IMG/VR virus record: IMGVR_UViG_3300032288_001908
Location: 1-37,197 of that record
DNA: 37,197 nucleotides
Reading direction: 5' to 3' (one strand)
Origin: a virus
Shown: positions 9,327 through 35,410 of the stretch, in pieces
Position numbering within the stretch: position 1 is the first letter of the stretch
Layout of the letters: every line of letters begins with the position of its first letter
Made by a program: the position numbers and the translations under genes
Notes under the pieces: generated by a model
Database searches by the model: none
What the model saw: the letters and a program-made list of their open reading frames with translations, nothing else
What the model was told of the DNA's origin: nothing

Positions 9327-9350
9327 CGGATCGAGTGTCAAGCGGGTCTT

Positions 9351-9413
9351 AGGTGGTGCGTTGCGTCACGATGGCGGGTTTTGCACATTACGCGAGAGTT
9401 ATTCCCACCACCT
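9351..9413 (+). promoter_or_regulatory. Long inverted repeat between glycosyltransferase and lysis genes
   Basis: AGGTGGTG at 9351-9358 is perfectly complementary to CACCACCT at 9406-9413. The 47-nt loop contains further short complementarity (GCGT/ACGC). The second arm is followed by only three Ts, so this is a weak terminator at best. It may separate or stabilise the tail and lysis transcripts. Confidence 0.35.
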
Positions 9414-10646: not shown

Positions 10647-10687
10647 CGCGAGGTCGCACGGCGTACTGCGAAGTATCGCTCTAGACA

Positions 10688-10716
10688 TTGACTTGTACCG
10701 GCGAACGTAGCATATT
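10688..10716 (+). promoter_or_regulatory. Candidate sigma70 promoter upstream of terminator-bounded RNA
   Basis: TTGACT (10688-10693) and CATATT (10711-10716) are separated by exactly 17 bp. Transcription would start near 10723 and run into the terminator at 10823-10849 without meeting a gene, giving an RNA of about 130 nt. Match to consensus is 5/6 and 4/6. Confidence 0.45.
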
Positions 10717-10722
10717 CCGGCC

Positions 10723-10853
10723 CTCGGGTCGCACACGGCGTTTGCGCGGACACCGCCTCCCGTGCCGAGGAAAACCGTCTTAGGACCAGTGACGCCGACT
10801 CCAAAACGGCGGTTCATGCGCTAAAGCCTCGGGTGTGTTCCGGGGCTTTGTCG
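10723..10853 (+). ncRNA. Candidate small RNA between promoter and terminator
   Basis: This stretch has no credible coding frame. It is bounded by a candidate promoter (10688-10716) and ends with the terminator hairpin at 10823-10849. Inside, a CCTCGG near the 5' end can pair with CCGAGG about 40 nt later, GCGG-ACA-CCGC forms a tight hairpin, CGTC can pair with GACG, and CGCCG with CGGCG around an ACTCCAAAA loop. The loop resembles a tRNA-Trp anticodon loop, but no full cloverleaf forms. I do not recognise a known RNA family; existence as a transcript is inference. Confidence 0.35.
10823..10849 (+). terminator. Intrinsic terminator after the late genes
   Basis: AAAGCCTCGG (10823-10832) pairs with CCGGGGCTTT (10840-10849) over 10 bp with one G-U pair, around a 7-nt loop, and is followed by GTCGTTT. 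It lies downstream of the last lysis gene and before the early promoter. Confidence 0.7.
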
Positions 10854-10873
10854 TTTCCTGGCGTGGTCATCCA

Positions 10874-10900
10874 TTGATTTACAGCGGCCTCGGGTATAAG
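10874..10900 (+). promoter_or_regulatory. Candidate promoter ahead of the hairpin tract
   Basis: TTGATT (10874-10879) and TATAAG (10895-10900) are separated by 15 bp, shorter than the optimum. A start near 10906 would place the first hairpin of the tract at the very 5' end of the RNA. The -10 matches consensus 5/6; the -35 is weak. Confidence 0.35.
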
Positions 10901-10902
10901 AT

Positions 10903-11260
10903 GGGGCGTTCGCCTTTGCGACAAGGGGAACGCTCGGGCCTTCTTTGGGTCTCCCGAGCCGCTATGAACACACCATAGTGGATCAATCCTGACCCTCCCG
11001 CATCGACTTGAAGGGCAAAATTCCGGGCTCTGCCAACCTGCAACCCGGACAGGTAGAACGGTCGAAGGCGCGTTCCACGGTCGAATAGCATGACCGGTAG
11101 CCAACTCCCAAAGGCGAATCAGCAACAGGCGGGGCTGATCGAGCAGGGACCGCGATGCTAGCCGTGTGTCTTAACTGCGTGATCCTTCGGGGTCCGACCT
11201 ACCAAGGCGAAAGGAGGGCGCTACGCGCCGGTCTCCTACCTGGGAATGGTCCCGCCATAG
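10903..11260 (+). other. Hairpin-rich noncoding tract (structured RNA or origin candidate)
   Basis: I see no convincing gene here. Hairpins read by eye lie at 10906-10933 (6+4 bp with one mismatch), 10932-10959 (7 bp), 10959-10981 (8 bp with one G-U), 11022-11049 (6 bp), 11078-11096 (5 bp), 11181-11194 (5 bp closed by a UUCG tetraloop), 11212-11237 (5+5 bp) and 11242-11253 (4 bp). ACGGTCGAA occurs twice 19 bp apart (11058, 11077). Possible roles are a structured phage RNA, an untranslated leader, a replication origin or a packaging site. GC-rich sequence yields chance hairpins, so the density needs a shuffled control. Confidence 0.4.
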
Positions 11261-11309
11261 CCTACCGGGAAAGCCAAAAAAGAAAGTTCAAGAAAGTTAG
11301 AATTAACTG

Positions 11310-11338
11310 TTGACATTAGGCTTAGTCGGGGGTATTCT
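11310..11338 (+). promoter_or_regulatory. Early promoter P1
   Basis: A perfect TTGACA (11310-11315), 17-bp spacer and TATTCT (11333-11338) form a strong sigma70-type promoter. The flanking 13-mer ACTGTTGACATTA recurs at the second early promoter (14370). It should drive the operon that begins at 11392. Confidence 0.8.
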
Positions 11339-11344
11339 AGGGTG

Positions 11345-11384
11345 TCGGCCAGCGACGCCGAGTTGGTTCACCTAAGACGGAGGG
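11345..11384 (+). promoter_or_regulatory. Conserved 5' leader with hairpin and ribosome site, copy 1
   Basis: TCGGC (11345-11349), loop CAGCGAC and GCCGA (11357-11361) form a 5-bp hairpin. It is followed by TTCACCTAAGACGGAGGGTT, exactly repeated in copy 2 (14405-14445), which ends in a GGAGG ribosome site. The loop differs between copies at two positions while the stem is unchanged. CCT upstream of the ribosome site could pair with AGG inside it, so translational control is possible. The distance from -35 to hairpin is 35 nt in both copies. Confidence 0.7.
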
Positions 11385-11391
11385 TTTGGCA

Positions 11392-11556
11392 ATGACCACG
11401 AAATACTACGCGCACGGCATTGGGCACATTCAGAAACACGACACCGGTTATTTGGTGTCCTTCTACGGACGGAGGGTGTGCCAGCAGATCGTTTCGACCA
11501 TAGCCGAGGCGCGGGTAGCGTTGGCCGCGCTGGCAAAAAATGGAGGTGCCGCATGA
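11392..11556 (+). CDS. Small early protein of unknown function (54 aa)
   Basis: This is the first gene after promoter P1, with GGAGG 8 bases before the ATG at 11392. The 54-residue product begins MTTKYYAHGIGHIQKH, is rich in Tyr, His and basic residues, has one Cys, and ends in an Ala-rich helix. The stop overlaps the next start (ATGA). It is too short for family assignment. A first-in-operon early protein of this size is often a host-takeover or antirestriction factor in phages, but nothing in the sequence shows that here. Confidence 0.75.
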   Translation: MTTKYYAHGIGHIQKHDTGYLVSFYGRRVCQQIVSTIAEARVALAALAKNGGAA

Positions 11557-11780
11557 ACGGCCAATCCAGCGAACTGGACGATATGATCGCACGGGCCACG
11601 GACGCGAAGCTGTCCCGGATGGCTGAGTTCTTCCAAAGCTGGCAGCAGGTCGATCGCGGGTCGGATCTGGTCGCGGCGGTCCTTCGGAAGATTGACCAAG
11701 AGCTCGCCAATCGCCGCGCCGAGGACGGGTACCAGCGGCCGACGTTCTCGGTCCTGACGGGAGGCGACGAGGCATGTTAA
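11553..11780 (+). CDS. Small acidic early protein, unknown (75 aa)
   Basis: The ATG at 11553 overlaps the preceding stop (ATGA) and is preceded by GGAGG at 11542-11546, which settles the start over longer in-frame versions. The 75-residue protein is largely helical with charged heptad-like spacing (ELDDMIARATDAKLSRMAEFFQ). It has no cysteine pairs, membrane segment or known motif. It is translationally coupled to both neighbours: its end overlaps the next gene by 7 bases. Confidence 0.7.
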   Translation: MNGQSSELDDMIARATDAKLSRMAEFFQSWQQVDRGSDLVAAVLRKIDQELANRRAEDGYQRPTFSVLTGGDEAC

Positions 11781-12103
11781 GCAAGACGGATCTGGCGTAT
11801 TACGGCGGTCGGGCGGCGCGGATTGAATCGCAACTCTATGCGATTGTGCCGATCCTTTCGCAGATTCACGGGCTGGTTACCCATATGGCCGATCACGCCG
11901 GGGGATTGGTCGAAGTCCTCGGCGGGATGACGGGACCGGAAGCGGCCGAGGTTCGGATGGCGATGGAGAAAACCCGTGCCGCGTTGGTCGCCGTGGATCT
12001 AGACTTTGAGTCGGCGATGAATAGCTTAGACAGCGCACGTTTCCGCGCCAATGCGACGGCGCAACTTACCACCCCGCACCTGATGACGGGAGAGACGGAA
12101 TGA
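11774..12103 (+). CDS. Early protein of unknown function (109 aa)
   Basis: This 109-residue protein overlaps the preceding gene by 7 bases and the ERF gene by 4. It is predicted to be all helical, with a methionine-, alanine- and glycine-rich middle and a second charged helix (AAEVRMAMEKTRAALVAVD). No motif is recognised. Its place immediately upstream of the ERF recombinase and tight overlap suggest a recombination or DNA-binding helper, by context only. Confidence 0.68.
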   Translation: MLSKTDLAYYGGRAARIESQLYAIVPILSQIHGLVTHMADHAGGLVEVLGGMTGPEAAEVRMAMEKTRAALVAVDLDFESAMNSLDSARFRANATAQLTTPHLMTGETE

Positions 12104-12843
12104 AAACGAGCAACAGCATTACGGCGATTGCCCCGGCCCTAGTGGCCGCGGCGGCAGAACTAGGACCGGTGGCGAAGGATGCGACCAACCCCGCGTTTCG
12201 GAACCGCTACGCGACCCTCGATGCGATTATGGAGGCGGTGCGGCCGGTCCTGGCGCGGCACGGGTTGGCGGTGATTCAGACGGGGACGACGCCGGAAACG
12301 ATCGACGGGAGGCTGACGTCGGTCGGGGTGGAGACGATGGTGCTCCATAAGTCGGGCGAATGGATCGCGGCGGCGGTCACGTTGCCGGTCGAGAAGTTGA
12401 CGGCGCAGGGCGCGGGGTCGGCGATTAGTTACGGGCGGCGGTACGGGATTTCGGCGCTCCTGGGGTTGACCGCGGAGGATGACGACGGGAACGCGGCATC
12501 GGCCCGTCCCGCAGCGGCGACGATCACGCATACGCGAGCGGTCGAGGCGTCGCCGGAACCGGGGCAGCGACTCTATCAGAACGTGCCGGATACGCCGCGA
12601 GCCAAGCCGTTTAACGGGTCGGTCGGCGAGGCGATGGCGTGGAAGATCCCGTTCAAGAAGTCGAAGCATTTCGGGAAGCCGTTGTCGGAGCTGGCGCAGG
12701 AGGATTTGGAATCCCTGCACGATTTCCTCCGGAAAGATCCGGAGAAGTTTGGGGACATTATCCAGCGGGTACAGGCGGTCCTTGAACACTATTTCGCGGA
12801 AGATTCCAATAACCCGCCGCCAGTTGAGGACCTACCGTTTTGA
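12100..12843 (+). CDS. erf: ERF-family single-strand annealing recombinase
   Basis: The protein has 247 residues. Residues 1-140 match the ERF superfamily: an N-terminal helix, the NPAFRNRYATLDAIMEAVRPVL segment at about 28-50, the HGLAVIQ strand, and the SYGRRYGISALLGL motif near 108-121 followed by an acidic patch. ERF proteins anneal complementary single strands and circularise or repair phage genomes. Residues 140-180 look disordered. Residues about 185-225 form a small helical domain, and the protein ends in an acidic tail with EDLPF, which resembles the C-terminal tip of bacterial SSB. It overlaps both neighbours by 4 bases in the early operon, next to a zinc protein and a DNA methyltransferase. 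The family call is strong; the tail analogy is inference. Confidence 0.9.
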   Translation: MKTSNSITAIAPALVAAAAELGPVAKDATNPAFRNRYATLDAIMEAVRPVLARHGLAVIQTGTTPETIDGRLTSVGVETMVLHKSGEWIAAAVTLPVEKLTAQGAGSAISYGRRYGISALLGLTAEDDDGNAASARPAAATITHTRAVEASPEPGQRLYQNVPDTPRAKPFNGSVGEAMAWKIPFKKSKHFGKPLSELAQEDLESLHDFLRKDPEKFGDIIQRVQAVLEHYFAEDSNNPPPVEDLPF

Positions 12844-13289
12844 CGATCGGCGTACGATGCGACGTCCGGATGCCTCCGGGTCGGGTATGCGCGACGCCGA
12901 TGCATGAAACGATCGACCACCTCGGGCGCGTTTCCTGGACGTGCCCGCGGTGCGCGTGGCGCAAGGCGGGGCGGTGCTGGCAATGCGGGGCGACCCGGAC
13001 AAATGACCGCAAGGCGGGGGTCTATTGCGTCCATTGCGCGACGCGAAACAGCGTGCAAAAAAAGACGCGGTATGCCAAGTCGGAAATGGGACAGCATAAG
13101 CGCCGCCTCTACGAACGGCAGCGCAGCCGACGGGCCGACGTGCGGGAACGTAAGGCGGCGCGGCTCAAGGCGTGGCGGCACGCGGACCCGAGCCGATTGG
13201 CCGTTCTGGCGGCAAAGGCACGGGAGCGGTACTGGCGACAAAAGGCCGAACGGGCCGCGGAGGTGCCAAATGCGTCGGACGTACGTTGA
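12840..13289 (+). CDS. Cysteine-rich zinc-binding protein, basic C terminus
   Basis: I take the TTG at 12840, which overlaps the ERF stop (TTGA). This start retains Cys7 and Cys17; the ATG at 12870 would remove Cys7 and lacks a ribosome site. Four CxxC-type or near elements (CPRC, CWQC, CVHC plus the early cysteines) make two probable zinc ribbons in the first 70 residues. The last 75 residues are very basic (Arg/Lys-rich helix). That combination fits a nucleic-acid-binding protein, though no exact family is recognised. The end overlaps the methyltransferase start by 20 bases. Some phage recombination-nuclease families have this look, but no catalytic motif is visible. Confidence 0.72.
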   Translation: MTIGVRCDVRMPPGRVCATPMHETIDHLGRVSWTCPRCAWRKAGRCWQCGATRTNDRKAGVYCVHCATRNSVQKKTRYAKSEMGQHKRRLYERQRSRRADVRERKAARLKAWRHADPSRLAVLAAKARERYWRQKAERAAEVPNASDVR

Positions 13290-14373
13290 ACTGTTTGCGG
13301 GGGCCGGTGGGTTGTCCCTGGGGTTAAATGATGCGGGATGGCGACCGATCGCGCACGCGGAAATTGAGCGCCATGCCCGAGCGGTTCTCCGGGATAAATG
13401 GCCGTTCCTGCCGTTGCACGGGGACGTCCGCCAGATCGATTGGACCCAATACCGTGGGGCGGTCGATTTGGTGGCGGGTGGTTCGCCGTGTCAAGATTTG
13501 TCGATCGCCGGGAAACGGTCCGGGTTGGCAGGGGAACGGTCTGGGTTGTTTTACGAATTGGTCCGGGCGTGGAATGAAACGGCCGCGCCGTACTGCTTAT
13601 GGGAGAACGTCGATGGGTGTCGATCCAGCAACAACGGGCGGGATTTTGCCGCGGTATTATCTGCCTTCTTGGGAGTCGCGGTTGCTGTTCCCGCGGACGG
13701 ATGGCGAAGCAGCGGTGTGGCAGCAGGACCGCACGCCGTCGCCTCCTGGCGGGTGCTCGATTTACAAGAGTTTGCTATCCCGCAACGCCGAACGCGGGTC
13801 TTTATGGTTGTTGCTCGAACCGGCGGCGTCGATCCCGCCGAAGTATTGGGTCTCACCTCGCCAGATGGCGAACGTCAGCCGACGGACGAGCAAGTGGAAG
13901 GGCCATTCTGGAACGGAGGAACCGTCGTTCCTGCCCTAGATATTTCCGGAATTGTGAAACAGCAGACGATGCCAGAAAAGGGGCGACTGTGGGCCGTCCG
14001 CGGCGAGCAATGGGTACCCGTCGTGTGGAGCGCCGAGGTCGACGAAGATTTAGAGGAATGTCCACAATGCGGCGGGACGTATCCGGACTGCCCGTGCCCT
14101 AGACCAACGCAGGACTACCCGTATCGCGAAACCGACGGCCAGTTGGAAGCCCTAGTTCCGTGGCTGCGACGGTTGACGCCCATCGAATGCGAACGCCTGA
14201 TGTCCTGGCCTGATCGGTGGACGGAGGTCGGACGGGACGATAACGGGACGGTCTACAAGCTCCCGGATACGGCGCGATATAAGCTTTGCGGCAACGGGGT
14301 CGGGTCAGTGGTCGCCGAATGGATTGGGCGACGGATAATAGAAAGTTTGGAAAACGCCGCAAAAGACTGTTGA
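13270..14373 (+). CDS. DNA (cytosine-5) methyltransferase, orphan
   Basis: From the ATG at 13270 the protein has 367 residues and starts directly in motif I (ELFAGAGGLSLG). Motif IV is GGSPCQ with catalytic Cys74, motif VI is WENV, motif VIII is QRRTR, and motif X is GNGVGSVVAEW near the C terminus. All catalytic motifs are in canonical order, so it should be active on an unknown target. The variable target region includes a short CPQCGG...CPCP segment that could bind zinc, which is unusual. No restriction endonuclease gene is nearby, so the usual reading is self-protection from host restriction. An in-frame extension back to 12904 is Arg-rich and overlaps the zinc protein, so I reject it. 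The TGA stop lies inside the -35 box of the next promoter. Confidence 0.92.
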   Translation: MRRTYVELFAGAGGLSLGLNDAGWRPIAHAEIERHARAVLRDKWPFLPLHGDVRQIDWTQYRGAVDLVAGGSPCQDLSIAGKRSGLAGERSGLFYELVRAWNETAAPYCLWENVDGCRSSNNGRDFAAVLSAFLGVAVAVPADGWRSSGVAAGPHAVASWRVLDLQEFAIPQRRTRVFMVVARTGGVDPAEVLGLTSPDGERQPTDEQVEGPFWNGGTVVPALDISGIVKQQTMPEKGRLWAVRGEQWVPVVWSAEVDEDLEECPQCGGTYPDCPCPRPTQDYPYRETDGQLEALVPWLRRLTPIECERLMSWPDRWTEVGRDDNGTVYKLPDTARYKLCGNGVGSVVAEWIGRRIIESLENAAKDC

Positions 14374-14395
14374 CATTACAGAAAACCGGTATACT
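14370..14395 (+). promoter_or_regulatory. Early promoter P2
   Basis: TTGACA (14370-14375) is embedded in the same 13-mer ACTGTTGACATTA as at P1. The best -10 is TATACT (14390-14395), but the spacing is only 14 bp, so the -10 assignment is tentative. The first three bases of the methyltransferase stop codon are inside the -35 box. Confidence 0.6.
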
Positions 14396-14404
14396 TTCAT
14401 CATA

Positions 14405-14445
14405 TCGGCTGGCGACGCCGAGCGGTTTTCACCTAAGACGGAGGG
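14405..14445 (+). promoter_or_regulatory. Conserved 5' leader with hairpin and ribosome site, copy 2
   Basis: TCGGC (14405-14409), loop TGGCGAC and GCCGA (14417-14421) repeat the stem of copy 1 with two loop changes. The following 20 bases ending in GGAGGGTT are identical to copy 1. The ATG of the next gene is at 14453, 48 nt from the hairpin start (47 in copy 1). Confidence 0.7.
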
Positions 14446-14452
14446 TTGCACG

Positions 14453-14665
14453 ATGACGAAGCACGAAGCCCTGGCGCAGGTTCAGCAGGACATTGCGATG
14501 GCGATGGGCCGCCTCGCGTTTTTCGCTGCCGAGACAGCGGCGGTTGCCATTGAGGATATGGAAGGGCGGGAATGGACCCGCGAATCGACGCAGGAACGGC
14601 TGCGTCAGATGCGCGAAACTGAAAAGTGGCTGTACAACGATTTGGCGCAGGAGGTGGCCGCATGA
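14453..14665 (+). CDS. Small early protein, unknown (70 aa)
   Basis: This is the first gene after promoter P2 and its leader, with GGAGG well placed before the ATG at 14453. The 70-residue protein is entirely helical by eye: an Ala/Met-rich first helix and a charged second helix (QERLRQMRETEKWLYNDLAQE). It has no membrane segment long enough to be certain and no known motif. The TGA overlaps the next ATG. It is not an obvious relative of the first P1 gene despite the shared leader. Confidence 0.72.
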   Translation: MTKHEALAQVQQDIAMAMGRLAFFAAETAAVAIEDMEGREWTRESTQERLRQMRETEKWLYNDLAQEVAA

Positions 14666-17111: not shown

Positions 17112-17471
17112 ATGAACACGTTGGGCGCACGGATTCGGACGACGCGAAAGGCGATGAAGTTGTCACAGACCGACCTCGGCATAGCATTAGCGAATCGGTT
17201 ACAGCGGCCGAAGGCGTTTTCGGTCGGCACGGTCCTTGGATGGGAAAAGGGGGACAGCGAACCGTCCCTCGATGCGATTTTTGCGATGGGGCAGATGGCG
17301 CATGTTTCGGCGGCATGGCTGGCGTTTGGTGATGTGGCGTACCGGATCACGATGGATCATCCGCAACAGACACCGGGAGAGGATCATGCAGACGAAAACG
17401 CGGCAGGATTCGGACGACACGTATCGGCCGGTGCAGACGTTGCGAGCGATGACGCACGGACGGCGCATTGA
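17112..17471 (+). CDS. XRE-family (Cro/CI-like) transcriptional regulator
   Basis: The protein has 119 residues. Residues about 5-70 form an XRE helix-turn-helix: GARIRTTRKAMKLSQTDLGIAL, then GTVLGWEKGDSEPSLDAIFAMGQ with the typical WExG turn. There is no ribosome site before the ATG at 17112, and a possible -10 lies just upstream, so the message may be leaderless, as lambda cI is from PRM. It is on the same strand as the early genes rather than divergent, so a classic CI/Cro switch is not evident. The last 29 codons overlap the next gene in another frame. Probably it represses its own and perhaps late promoters. Confidence 0.82.
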   Translation: MNTLGARIRTTRKAMKLSQTDLGIALANRLQRPKAFSVGTVLGWEKGDSEPSLDAIFAMGQMAHVSAAWLAFGDVAYRITMDHPQQTPGEDHADENAAGFGRHVSAGADVASDDARTAH

Positions 17472-17571
17472 GTCGCGGATCTATCTGGACCACCTTACGG
17501 CGGTCATCCTGGCGCGGTTGGTCCGGGAATCGACCGAACCGATCCTTTCCGGCGTTCTGACGGCACGATGA
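17386..17571 (+). CDS. Small protein overlapping the XRE gene, unknown (61 aa)
   Basis: The ATG at 17386 follows a GGAGAGG ribosome site and lies in a different frame inside the end of the XRE gene (86-base overlap). The stop overlaps the next ATG. The product has 61 residues with a hydrophobic, Arg-containing helix (YLDHLTAVILARLVRE) and a polar N terminus. The chain of overlapping starts supports it as real. Function unknown. Confidence 0.6.
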   Translation: MQTKTRQDSDDTYRPVQTLRAMTHGRRIESRIYLDHLTAVILARLVRESTEPILSGVLTAR

Positions 17572-18785
17572 CGCAAAACCTACCAATCGCAAAGCTCAAG
17601 CCAAATCCGAGCAATCCGCGGATCATTAAGGATGAGAAATTTCGGAAATTGGTGCAAAGCATCAAGGAGTTTCCGGAAATGTTGCAACTTCGTCCGATCG
17701 TGGTCGATGCGGACCTGATGGTCCTCGGGGGCAATATGCGCCTGAAGGCTTGTCAAACGGCTGGACTTAAGGACGTGCCGGTGGTGATTGCGTCCGACCT
17801 AACGCCAGAACAACAGCGCGAGTTTGTCATTAAAGACAACGTTGGGTTCGGGGAATGGGAATGGGACGCGCTGGCAAATAAATGGGACGTGGACCAACTC
17901 ACCGCCTGGGGCCTCGACCTGCCGAGCTTTGAGTCGGAACCCGTCACTGGACAGACCGACCCGGACGAGGTACCGGAACCGCCGGCCGAGCCGGTCATTA
18001 AACCGGGCGATTTGATAGCGCTCGGCGACCACCGGCTGCTTTGCGGCGACTCAACGGACGCGATTGGCTGGGATCGGCTTATGGCCGGAAGGAGCGGACA
18101 AATGGTTTGGACCGATCCTCCATACGGCGTCAATATGGAAGAAGTCAATGCGTCATTAGCTCGCGCTGGGAAACGAAGTATGACTCGTGAAGTACATGGT
18201 CTATCTAACGATAGCCTAGACGAGCACGGTCTAGAACAACTGCTGCGTGGGTCGCTTGGCCTAGCCTTTACGCATTGCGCCGATGGCGCTGTCTGGTATG
18301 TAGCGGCTCCGCCTGGGCCGCTATATACGATCTTCGCGCTGATAATTAAAGAGTTTGGCATTTGGCGGCAGACACTCCAATGGGTAAAAGATGTTTTTGT
18401 GCTCGGACGCTCGGACTATCACTACCGGAACGAGCCGATCTTTTACGGCTGGAAACCCGGAGCCGCTCATTATTTTGTGAATGACCGGACGCAGGATACG
18501 ATCTGGGAAATTCCACGACCGAAGAAGAACCCAGATCATCCGACCATGAAGCCTATAGAACTAGTCCAACGGGCCATTCTGAATAGCTCAAAACCTGGCG
18601 ACCTAATTCTTGAACCGTTTGGTGGGTCTGGTACGACCCTGCTAGCCGCCGAAACCACGCAACGCGTGGCGGCGGTCATTGAACTCGATCCGCGGTATTG
18701 CGATGTGATCGTGCGGCGGTGGCAGCAGTTTACGGGACGGACGGCCACCTACGCCGACACCGGCCAGCCGGTCGCCTTGACATAA
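17568..18785 (+). CDS. ParB-like nuclease domain fused to DNA methyltransferase
   Basis: The protein has 405 residues. Residues about 5-100 are a ParB/Srx-like domain (IAKLKPNPSNPR, then VVDADLMVLGGNMRLKA). Residues about 145-395 are an amino-methyltransferase of the beta class, with catalytic DPPY at Asp183-Tyr186 before the AdoMet motif EPFGGSGTT. It should methylate adenine N6 or cytosine N4. This fusion is common in phages of this type and sits next to the terminase, as here. Bases about 18115-18640 have many CTA, GCT, GGT and AGC codons, unlike the flanks, so the catalytic part may have been swapped. Two methyltransferases without restriction partners suggest anti-restriction. Confidence 0.92.
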   Translation: MTQNLPIAKLKPNPSNPRIIKDEKFRKLVQSIKEFPEMLQLRPIVVDADLMVLGGNMRLKACQTAGLKDVPVVIASDLTPEQQREFVIKDNVGFGEWEWDALANKWDVDQLTAWGLDLPSFESEPVTGQTDPDEVPEPPAEPVIKPGDLIALGDHRLLCGDSTDAIGWDRLMAGRSGQMVWTDPPYGVNMEEVNASLARAGKRSMTREVHGLSNDSLDEHGLEQLLRGSLGLAFTHCADGAVWYVAAPPGPLYTIFALIIKEFGIWRQTLQWVKDVFVLGRSDYHYRNEPIFYGWKPGAAHYFVNDRTQDTIWEIPRPKKNPDHPTMKPIELVQRAILNSSKPGDLILEPFGGSGTTLLAAETTQRVAAVIELDPRYCDVIVRRWQQFTGRTATYADTGQPVALT

Positions 18786-31523: not shown

Positions 31524-33992
31524 ATGGCGCTTGGTACACCCACCGACGGCGGCGCGGCGTATTCCGCGACAAACGGCACATCGGTCGCGCCTGTCTATCC
31601 CGCAGGTATTGCGGCCAATGATGTGGTGTTGTTGGTCGTTGGGCAAAAGCCAAGCGCGGCAAACGGTGGCACGGTCACCACGCCGACAGGATGGACGCTT
31701 CGCGAATCGCTGACGGGCGCTGGAGGATATGGCGCAACGCTCGGCGCGGATACTGGCAACACCAACCTGTTCATTTATAGTAAAGACACAGTTGCCGGAA
31801 CAGAAACAGGGACACTGACCGTCACGATCGGCGCGAATAGCGTCTCTTGGGCGCTCATTGTGCGTATTCCCACGGCGGGTGTCGGTGCCACGTTTGCGTA
31901 TGGAAGCGCGGACGGATCGCGCACGACCGCGCCGACGAGTGGTGTGGCATTTACTACAGTCCTAACGAACGGGACAACCGCGCCAGCGTTGCAGTCGGGT
32001 GATATGGCCGTGTGGGCCATGTGCATTCCGACGGACGTCAACCTAAACTGGGCCAGTTTGCCAACCCTTACTTCCACCGGCACCACGTTTGCCACAGCGG
32101 TGGAGTTGGAGGAGCCGAACAACGGCAACGGCAACGACATTGGTGGGTATGTCGCGTATGCGTTAGCGACGGCGGGGACGAGCGCGGTCGCGCCGACGGT
32201 TGGCGTGACGGGCACGGGCACGATGACGAACGTGCGTGGCCCGATTGCGTTGGTTCGCGTGCGCGAGACGTTGCCGACAATTAGCGGCAGTTTGGCGGTC
32301 ACAGAATCCGGCGCAGATACGTTTGCCGGATTGGGTGATGTCATTGTATCCGGCGCGTTTGCGGCGACGGAGACGGGCAACGATACGTTTGCGGCTACAG
32401 GAACGGTCGCATGGCCTGAGGTAACGGGCACGTTGGCGGCGACGGAATCCGGCGCGGATACGTTTGCCGCGACGGGATCGGTCACTGACCCGGCGATCAC
32501 GGGCACGTTGGCCGCGACGGAATCCGGCGCGGATACGGCGACGATCGCGGGTCAGGTCATTGTTGCGGGGACGTTTGGCGCGACAGAATCCGGTGCGGAT
32601 GTCCTGGCGGCGACGGGCACGGTTGCGTGGCCGACGATTTCCGGGGCATTGGCGGCGAGCGAAAACGGGTTCGATACGTTTGCGGCATTGGGCGCGGTTG
32701 AGATCCGCGGAATCCTAGCGGCGACGGAATCCGGCGACGATGCGTTTGCGGGGTCCGGTTCGGTTGTTGTTGCGGGGACGTTAAGCGCGACGGAATTGGG
32801 ATCGGACGTTTTTGCAGCCGCGGGGACGGTGGAGATCCGCGGGGCGTTGGATGCGACGGAAACGGGCGCGGATACGTTCCTGGCGAGTGGCGCGGTCACA
32901 ATCTCGGGCGCGTTGAGTGCGACGGAATCCGGCGCGGATGTCCTCGCGGCGGTAGGTCAGGTAGTGGTTTTCGGCGCGTTGGCGGTGACCGAATCCGGCG
33001 ATGATGCGTTTGCGGCGGCGGGGACGGTCGATGTCCTTGGGGCGTTGGCGGGAGTCGAGGTTGGGTCGGATACGTTCCTGGCGAACGGCGCGGTTGAAAT
33101 TGCGGGGACGTTGGCCGCGATTGAGACGGGAGAGGATACGTTCGCGGCGAGCGGGTCGGTCACCGATCCGGCGATTGTTGGGGATTTCGCGGCGGTTGAA
33201 GTCGGGACCGACACGACGGCAATAGATGGCCGCGTGCTGGTTGCGGGTTCTCTCGCGGCTGACGAAACGGGCGCGGATACGGCGGCGATTGCGGGGACAG
33301 TAGCAATCGCGGGGTCGGGGACGGCGGTCCTCGGACTCGATGTTTCGGCGTTTATGGAAAATACGTCGAACGTCACGGCCGTCATTTTTATCGTGCAAAC
33401 GGTCGAAGCGTCGGTCACGTCGGCGGTTGACGGGTCGGCGGTCTGTTCCCTGATCGTCAATAGCGCGGCGACGGGGGCGGTCGCGAGTGCGGCGACGGCG
33501 ACGGCGGCGTTGTTGGTAGATGCTGACGGGGCGGCGGCGGTCGATATATCGGCGGTGGGCGCGGCGTCCCTAGGGATTGAGGCGAGCGCCGCGGCGGTCA
33601 CGAATACCCGCGGCGAGGGAGCGGCGGTCCTAGCGATCGGTACAGATGCGACGGGATCGGTAGCAATCCTGGCGACGGGTCAGGCGGGGTTGGTGGTCGG
33701 CGTCGCGGCGACGGGTCAGACGGACGGCAATGTTGCGTTTGTCGTCCTGACGATTGGCGTCACAGCGACGGTCTCGATTCCGGTGCCGGTGACGGTAGTT
33801 CCCGCTAATACGCTCCGAATTGCGGCAAATAAAGCAACAACCGGGGTGCGGGTGGTCGATCGTTTGTGTACGGCTATGCCGCGCATTTCGACGACGAAAA
33901 CGGATAGCATTAATAGCGGCCCTCGGGTACGCACGACCAGCGTTGTGACGACGCGGCGGGTTCGGGCCGTGGCGTCCATTATTCCACGATAA
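31524..33992 (+). CDS. Large repeat protein, 15 units of about 22-25 residues
   Basis: The protein has 822 residues. Residues 1-250 form an N-terminal beta domain with a LVVGQK and GWTLRESLTG pattern, similar to N-terminal parts of other phage surface proteins. Residues about 253-594 are 15 tandem repeats with consensus GxLAATESGADTFAAxGxV followed by a short linker of 2-5 residues. Residues 595-822 are Ala/Val-rich strands and a basic C terminus. A repetitive beta structure on the virion surface is likely. No catalytic motif or signal peptide is seen. Binding to host or environmental glycans is possible but not shown. Confidence 0.75.
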   Translation: MALGTPTDGGAAYSATNGTSVAPVYPAGIAANDVVLLVVGQKPSAANGGTVTTPTGWTLRESLTGAGGYGATLGADTGNTNLFIYSKDTVAGTETGTLTVTIGANSVSWALIVRIPTAGVGATFAYGSADGSRTTAPTSGVAFTTVLTNGTTAPALQSGDMAVWAMCIPTDVNLNWASLPTLTSTGTTFATAVELEEPNNGNGNDIGGYVAYALATAGTSAVAPTVGVTGTGTMTNVRGPIALVRVRETLPTISGSLAVTESGADTFAGLGDVIVSGAFAATETGNDTFAATGTVAWPEVTGTLAATESGADTFAATGSVTDPAITGTLAATESGADTATIAGQVIVAGTFGATESGADVLAATGTVAWPTISGALAASENGFDTFAALGAVEIRGILAATESGDDAFAGSGSVVVAGTLSATELGSDVFAAAGTVEIRGALDATETGADTFLASGAVTISGALSATESGADVLAAVGQVVVFGALAVTESGDDAFAAAGTVDVLGALAGVEVGSDTFLANGAVEIAGTLAAIETGEDTFAASGSVTDPAIVGDFAAVEVGTDTTAIDGRVLVAGSLAADETGADTAAIAGTVAIAGSGTAVLGLDVSAFMENTSNVTAVIFIVQTVEASVTSAVDGSAVCSLIVNSAATGAVASAATATAALLVDADGAAAVDISAVGAASLGIEASAAAVTNTRGEGAAVLAIGTDATGSVAILATGQAGLVVGVAATGQTDGNVAFVVLTIGVTATVSIPVPVTVVPANTLRIAANKATTGVRVVDRLCTAMPRISTTKTDSINSGPRVRTTSVVTTRRVRAVASIIPR
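32280..33305 (+). repeat. Coding tandem repeats, about 66-75 bp, 15 units
   Basis: Each unit encodes GxLAATESGADTFAAxGxV plus a linker. Eleven units are 22 residues; four have an extra 3 residues (a WP or DP insertion). DNA copies are diverged in third positions, so the array is old or under diversifying drift, not a recent expansion. Confidence 0.85.
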
Positions 33993-34429: not shown

Positions 34430-35410
34430 ATGCTCGGAACCTTTCCGCTAAGTACCCTACCGCTGTCGTCCCTCGGGACGGTGGCGCTGGCGTTGTCGGC
34501 GGCGGTCGGGACGTTCAATAGTAGCGGTCAGACGGCGGCATTCCGTCTCAATCGAGCGTCCGAGGTCGGCGCGTTTGCGTTGACGGGCCAAGCGGCAACG
34601 ACGACCCGCACGGGAATCGTCCCTGGAGCGGCGGGGTCGTTTGTCCTGGCGGGTCAGGCGGCGACGATCCAACGGACGGCGATAGTGTCTGGCGGTGCGG
34701 GATCGTTTGTCCTGACGGGTCAGGCGGCGACGGTTCAAGCGACGCGAGTTCTGGCAAGTAGCGCGGGATCGTTTGCCGCGGTGGGGTTTCCGGCGCAATT
34801 CCATACGATTCGGCAGTCCGGGGCGGCGGCGTTTGTCCTGACGGGGAAAGCGGCGACGTTTGCGACGGGGAACGGGGTGCAGGGTGGACCGGGAACCTTT
34901 GCGCTGACGGGACAGGCGGCGACGTTTGCCGCAAGTTTGAGCGTTGCGGGTGGTCCGGGGACGTTCACGGCGACGGGCCAGACGGCGGTGTTGCGCTACG
35001 GTCGCTCGATTACGGGCGGCGTCGGAGCGTTTCACGTCACGGGTCAGGCCGCGGAGTTGCTTCGCGGATACCAGTTTGGGGCAAATCCTGGCGCGTTTGC
35101 GCTATCGGGCCAAGCCGCGGGATTGTTGCGCGGTCGAGTTATTGGGGTCGATGGCGGTGCGTTTGCCTTGACGGGTCAGGCGGCGGCGTTTGCGGTCACG
35201 CTACGTATCCCGTGTGCTGTCGGGGCGTTGGCGTTGACGGGACAGGCGGCGCGGCTCGGCCGCGGTCGCGTGCTTATGGCCGATCGTGGCATATTTATCC
35301 TGACCGGAAATGCGGCTGGTTTGCAAGAAGATACGGTGGTCCGACTTCGCGGCCGGGATTTCTCCGGGTCGCAGTATCTGGTGCGGGATGAATCGGAGGG
35401 CTACTGGTAA
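34430..35410 (+). CDS. Repeat protein, 13 units of about 22 residues
   Basis: The protein has 326 residues. The N terminus (LGTFPLSTLPLSSLG) is a conserved beginning seen in phage repeat proteins of this kind. Residues about 26-300 are 13 tandem units with consensus GxFALTGQAAxxxxGRxIxxx. The last 25 residues (RDFSGSQYLVRDESEGYW) are unique and acidic. The unit length nearly equals that of the repeat protein upstream, but the consensus sequences differ. It has a TAAGGAG site and its stop overlaps the next ATG. Likely a beta-repeat virion surface protein of unknown function. Confidence 0.75.
   Translation: MLGTFPLSTLPLSSLGTVALALSAAVGTFNSSGQTAAFRLNRASEVGAFALTGQAATTTRTGIVPGAAGSFVLAGQAATIQRTAIVSGGAGSFVLTGQAATVQATRVLASSAGSFAAVGFPAQFHTIRQSGAAAFVLTGKAATFATGNGVQGGPGTFALTGQAATFAASLSVAGGPGTFTATGQTAVLRYGRSITGGVGAFHVTGQAAELLRGYQFGANPGAFALSGQAAGLLRGRVIGVDGGAFALTGQAAAFAVTLRIPCAVGALALTGQAARLGRGRVLMADRGIFILTGNAAGLQEDTVVRLRGRDFSGSQYLVRDESEGYW
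34505..35330 (+). repeat. Coding tandem repeats, about 66 bp, 13 units
   Basis: Units encode GxFALTGQAA plus a variable 12-residue part. Units 1 and 5 are shorter (20 residues). The GGTCAGGCGGCG-like DNA core is well kept, while the remainder varies. Confidence 0.85.

Follow-up and report, generated by a model that had tools for sequence, protein, structure and literature searches.

The block that is repeated in the leaders of two early operons of this phage is proposed to be the pairing target of a trans-acting small RNA made by the same phage, which would repress several early genes; this reading is given a probability of roughly 0.7 on the basis of sequence comparisons. The stretch of DNA analysed (the window) is the IMG/VR phage record IMGVR_UViG_3300032288_001908, with a length of 37,197 bases and a 123-base terminal repeat, due to which the record is probably complete. 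Proteins of the early and late regions lead to a clade of uncultivated IMG/VR phages (TerL identity 67-83%), and two pattern scans for further clade members yielded one new genome, G025. The phages of INPHARED gave zero direct DNA matches to the window. A TerL search against GTDB genomes and named phages returned distant homologues only, with no close named phage or bacterial genome, and therefore no host is assigned.

The two leaders, P1 and P2, and the genes that they precede are composed of the following features:

11310-11338, + strand: promoter P1, TTGACA-17-TATTCT, with an A-rich stretch before it
11345-11361, + strand: leader hairpin 1, TCGGC(CAGCGAC)GCCGA, predicted to lie at the transcript's 5' end, with structural support from relatives
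11367-11386, + strand: leader block 1 with Shine-Dalgarno (SD) sequence; the small RNA is predicted to pair with 11371-11380 (positions -21 to -12 relative to the start codon)
11392-11556, + strand: first gene of the P1 operon, 54 aa, of unknown function, followed by small genes, an ERF recombinase and a C5 methyltransferase
12100-12843: ERF recombinase, P1 operon
13270-14373: C5 methyltransferase, P1 operon, its end overlapped by the -35 element of P2
14370-14397, + strand: promoter P2, TTGACA-16-TACTTT, with a weak -10 element
14405-14421, + strand: leader hairpin 2, TCGGC(TGGCGAC)GCCGA
14428-14447, + strand: leader block 2, again with an SD; predicted pairing site of the small RNA at 14432-14441 (-21 to -12)
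14453-14665, + strand: first gene of the P2 operon, 70 aa, of unknown function

An earlier note on this DNA had described P1 and P2 as a duplicated promoter with a conserved hairpin leader, and its description agrees with the sequence throughout. Both copies carry ACTGTTGACATTA (at 11306 and 14366), of which the window contains no other exact copy, and in both the stem TCGGC...GCCGA (11345 and 14405) begins exactly 35 nt after the start of TTGACA (11310 and 14370). The stems are identical and the loops differ by two bases (CAGCGAC and TGGCGAC), while conservation is absent between P1 and P2 in the stretch from the -35 element to the hairpin. The identical 20-mer TTCACCTAAGACGGAGGGTT, which includes the SD, occupies 11367-11386 and 14428-14447; chance alone predicts 0.01 matches to its 18-mer core at up to three mismatches, and two were found, both exact. 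The genes that follow are unrelated, their 54 aa and 70 aa products sharing no family. The -10 element of P2 is poor, being either TACTTT at a spacing of 16 nt or an alternative TATACT that would sit at 14 nt. The viral contigs searched for the exact 18-mer core provided no match outside this phage, and among these contigs the leader block is private to it.

In isolation the 5-bp hairpins of the two window copies fold no better than shuffled sequences (z -1.35 and -0.85), and the minimum-energy fold of the full window leader differs from the 5-bp hairpin; the support for the hairpin therefore comes from the relatives and not from the window itself. An Rfam search with the leader, which contains one hairpin only, gave no match. 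The relatives have a TTGACA/TATAAT-type promoter, a hairpin at a fixed distance, then the SD and the start codon, and this cassette is present in one to six copies per relative, preceding different genes. A scan of the relatives identified 32 leader candidates on the coding strand and one on the other strand, part of the 32 being promoter-like matches within other genes that show no clear hairpin. G002 has four leaders by scan and about six by eye, G008 and G009 have three each, and G011, G004 and the window have two each. The proposal of the earlier note that the leader itself is the conserved unit is thus upheld by the repetition of the promoter-hairpin-ribosome binding site (RBS) cassette within relatives, with different genes behind it. 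Conservation in the homologues also extends beyond the ribosome site, since the hairpin is kept at the same place with a different sequence. In one subfamily the loop is invariant (UAGCCG) and the stems differ among copies yet pair: 85.9% of cells are paired versus 60.2% in shuffles, changes on both sides occur in seven of nine pairs, and covariation is 0.691 versus at most 0.188 for slid versions of the hairpin. The covariation of these stems around an invariant loop indicates that the leader hairpin functions as RNA. A pattern scan for the loop sequence returned mostly chance matches plus three leaders that are from the clade or clade-like. One element of G002 (L244 7540-7612) consists of a hairpin and a CACCTGATCGGGAG block before a start codon, with no obvious promoter, so the hairpin and block can travel without the promoter.

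Upstream of P1 and after the lysis genes, the window contains a gap of about 740 bases (10647-11391) without a convincing gene. A promoter (10688), a predicted noncoding transcript of approximately 134 nt and an intrinsic terminator lie within it, about 590 nt upstream of P1:

10688-10716, + strand: promoter P0 of the small RNA, TTGACT-17-CATATT, identified from the sequence and a consensus scan, with CATATT or a similar element at the same place in relatives
10723-10856, + strand: putative noncoding small RNA acting in trans, of about 134 nt, with a 5' end placed from P0
10775-10784, + strand: seed CCGUCUUAGG, the exact complement of CCUAAGACGG in both leaders
10823-10856, + strand: intrinsic terminator, AAAGCCTCGGG TGTGT TCCGGGGCTTT GTCGTTT, identified by terminator search and a stable hairpin in the fold
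10918-11285, + strand: a further noncoding RNA, structured and longer (about 370 nt), that lies between the small RNA and P1 and is a neighbour of the putative pairing system

By its sequence, with a promoter, a terminator and no coding capacity, the putative small RNA has its own transcription unit. A syntenic counterpart is present in 10 further clade records, and all genomes that hold the region (11/11, including the window) show, in the same position, a promoter-like site, about 100-165 nt that are noncoding and a hairpin resembling a terminator; the terminator of G011 is atypical, with a weak T tail. The neighbouring RNA at 10918-11285 is conserved in 11 of 11 aligned genomes (the window, L002, L004, L006, L007, L008, L010, L011, L012, L015 and L357), with compensatory changes in 30 of 50 consensus pairs. 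No Rfam family was found for this RNA; its CAAUCCUGA(GCCAA) motif is reminiscent of element Q of group I introns.

The seed CCGUCUUAGG occurs once in the window, and its complement CCUAAGACGG is confined to the two leaders, where it occupies positions -21 to -12 relative to each start codon. The seeds differ by lineage together with the leader block, being CCGUCUUAGG in the window, CUCCGUAAGGGU in G001, CCGAUCAGGUG in G002, UCCGCCUAG in G005 and G013, and UCUCAGUCCGCGU in G009. If complementarity is selected, the small RNA of a phage should fit its own leaders better than the leaders of other phages, and pairing was scored within the 32 nt that precede the start codon, as a helix of contiguous pairs in which no more than one bulge was allowed. 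For seven lineages the assignment of each small RNA to its own leaders was the best of 5040 and was still the best with any one lineage dropped; for eight lineages it was the best of 40,320, beating the 40,319 others (z 5.0). Own pairing scored 41.4 versus 2.3 ± 6.6 for genome segments of the same length drawn at random (0/200 reached it), and 50.5 versus 0.6 ± 6.6 for random SD-bearing starts of the same genomes (0/20,000); from the latter control, likeness between SD and anti-SD does not explain the pairing. The signal is confined to the RBS region: hairpin, farther-upstream and coding windows gave z from -0.7 to 0.0 (0.8 for -48 to -16), segments cut from the neighbouring RNA and used as the partner gave z of 1.2 or less, and the reverse complement of the small RNA gave 0.9. 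The pairing idea was formed by eye on the same genomes, with a small number of lineages (n=8) and G025 alone held out. This eighth lineage was reached afterwards via a different element, and its small RNA exhibits an exact 11-nt match (CUCCCGUGGCG/CGCCACGGGAG) to its first leader that 0/400 random segments attain on either strand; its second leader pairs over 9 nt. Cofolding with the small RNA gave gains of -16.8 and -14.6 kcal/mol. Together these comparisons indicate that the complementarity of the small RNA to the leader mRNAs is selected.

Not every leader pairs well with the small RNA of its genome. Strong pairing was observed for both window leaders, three of the six of G002, one of G001, those of G005 and G013, one of G009 and the first of G025. 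For both leaders of G004, one of the pair in G001 and two of the three G009 leaders it is weak or absent; it is also weak for a number of second or third leaders, and the seed of G011 is predicted to be buried (0.05 unpaired). Ranked singly against all RBS regions of their genome, leaders stand high and are not always first (the window is 5th of 100); when compared one at a time, 2-4 of 75 other starts do as well, and several leaders fall within the best few per cent. Ranking every RBS of a genome by its best helix was only weakly informative. Whole-length RNAduplex energies separated own from foreign pairs poorly because GC-rich RNAs always find some duplex, whereas contiguous-helix scores separated them.

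Two further complementarities are present. The hexaloop UAGCCG (in leaders of L008, L010, L011, L012 and L002) complements a conserved GGCUA directly 3' of the seed in an antiparallel order that suits a second contact, and lineages without UAGCC loops are mostly without GGCUA. Loop-loop kissing between the UAGCC loop and GGCUA of the small RNA was rejected: its geometry fits some lineages, but the pairing signal of the hairpin window is z -0.19 and the P1 loop of the window does not fit. The leader block (CACCTAAGAC) has another 10-base complement, GTCTTAGGTG, which is located on the coding strand at 9346-9355, just upstream of a small gene at 9371, and may be due to chance.

The proposed mechanism begins with the leader as a cassette of strong promoter, 5'-terminal hairpin, target block and SD placed before several early genes. 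The phage would make the trans-acting small RNA (10723-10856) from its own promoter just upstream, and this RNA would form a helix of about 10 bp with positions -21 to -12, beside the SD or covering it, so that the duplex would block ribosome entry on both early mRNAs at once. The early genes would probably be turned down or timed as the outcome, and the 5' hairpin would most likely cap the mRNA end and keep the target block single-stranded. We infer that both RNAs are made, that the hairpin has this role and that pairing represses rather than activates, the last because an RNA duplex over the SD region generally hinders 30S binding. In eight lineages, changes in the small RNA have gone along with changes in its targets in such a way that most still pair, which suggests a virus-encoded RNA switch for early genes. 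Neither Phage_integrase nor Resolvase was found in the 11 records searched, which argues against temperate immunity and makes lysogenic immunity a less likely role than the timing of early genes or the exclusion of sibling phages. A bolder and doubtful extension is that the seed and all its targets form a private RNA address, giving RNA-only superinfection immunity against siblings and not against other lineages. If true, early genes of a sibling phage that enters an already infected cell would be shut off there, and this in phages for which no integrase was found.

A leader that needs no partner is an unlikely alternative to small-RNA pairing. A 5' stem-loop and a strong RBS would by themselves stabilise the early mRNAs, in the manner of ompA or aprE (literature on 5' stem-loops is compiled in PMC3997798), and the match to the small RNA would be a coincidence or a by-product of the SD. 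The hairpin does begin near the expected transcription start and its stems covary, but this explanation does not account for a block that varies between lineages in step with the small-RNA seed, for the blank SD-bearing control starts (0/20000), or for a conserved part that reaches 5' of the SD.

The hairpin might instead be recognised by a protein, either on the DNA or on the transcript. As a DNA operator, the dyad downstream of each promoter would bind a phage repressor, and a gene for an XRE-type repressor-like protein is present at 17112-17471 (phrog_4, E 3.4e-7); the stem bases are also the same in P1 and P2. Copies within one genome carry different stems that still pair around an invariant loop, however, whereas an operator would keep its arms, and the hairpin-block element of G002 stands without an obvious promoter, which leaves the operator very improbable. 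Antitermination, or an RNA-protein site of the lambda nut or HK022 put type at the 5' ends of early operons, has slighter prospects still. The hairpin is placed at the start of two early transcripts, and the invariant hexaloop UAGCCG on variable stems in one subfamily resembles a recognised loop, but in G002 up to six copies precede short units within a few kb, a terminator is absent at the leader, the loops differ in the window and in G002, and the genome-specific signal is in the RBS block and not in the hairpin. The earlier note had suggested a phage or host RNA-binding or antitermination factor as the partner of the leader; a trans-acting factor is indeed probable, but antitermination or a protein in that part is unsupported and a small RNA fits best.

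Pairing between a phage small RNA and a phage mRNA that lowers expression, as predicted here, is featured in P22 sar, lambda OOP and P22 sas, antisense RNAs that block translation of phage mRNA (PMC12197685). These have mainly one target, whereas the RNA described here apparently has two to six unlinked leaders and is encoded elsewhere rather than opposite its target. The CI RNA of P4 (seqA/seqC) likewise pairs with two repeated complementary sites in the early operon of its own phage (PMC4825925). It acts by premature termination within one operon and is processed from that operon, whereas the putative small RNA has a separate promoter and terminator and its sites are at the ribosome sites of different operons. 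What sets the present system apart from both is one RNA gene with several unlinked leaders that change in step with the seed. The leaders of ompA, papA and aprE also have a hairpin at the very 5' end (here predicted) followed by a strong RBS; these are single host leaders, and no partner RNA is known to pair with them at a repeated RBS block.

The layout of the leader is similar to the SAS/ESAS of cluster K mycobacteriophages, in which some of the early genes carry a repeated block at their RBS and about half of the copies have an upstream inverted repeat and promoter (PMC3203893, PMC11373665). The SAS partner is given as "RNA or protein", unknown, and the ESAS repeats do not covary as RNA according to the authors (PMC3203893), but the stems covary here, and the blocks and sequences are unrelated. 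The 13-bp SAS GGGATAGGAGCCC was not found at start codons, where the window has TTCACCTAAGACGGAGGGTT and the relatives differ from each other. K1-type mycobacteriophages (Anaya, L359 29871, record 59870; also L360, L367 and L368) contain a single reverse-orientation SAS, CCUCCUAUCCC on the coding strand, within a conserved noncoding gap of 380 nt. An anti-SAS RNA is one possible reading of it, though no more than a hint, since all six other cluster K phages examined (Marshawn, Scarlett, Keshu, MacnCheese, Cain and Shadow1) have no reverse-orientation SAS at that place.

The literature searched contains few descriptions of phage small RNAs that target several mRNAs of phage origin. If the proposed pairing is true, a whole clade would have one RNA that controls an early-gene regulon via a repeated leader cassette, and RNA-RNA coevolution would be traceable across lineages. 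Start-site repeats of other phages, among them the SAS of cluster K mycobacteriophages, which so far lacks an explanation, would also gain a concrete model open to testing.

Elsewhere in the window, two DNA methyltransferases are encoded, the C5 enzyme of the early operon (13270-14373) and a ParB-N6/N4 fusion (17568-18785) before the terminase. Two genes of the virion region, at 32295-33200 and 34555-35250, consist of degenerate repeats with spacings of 66 and 75 bases, equal to 22 and 25 codons.
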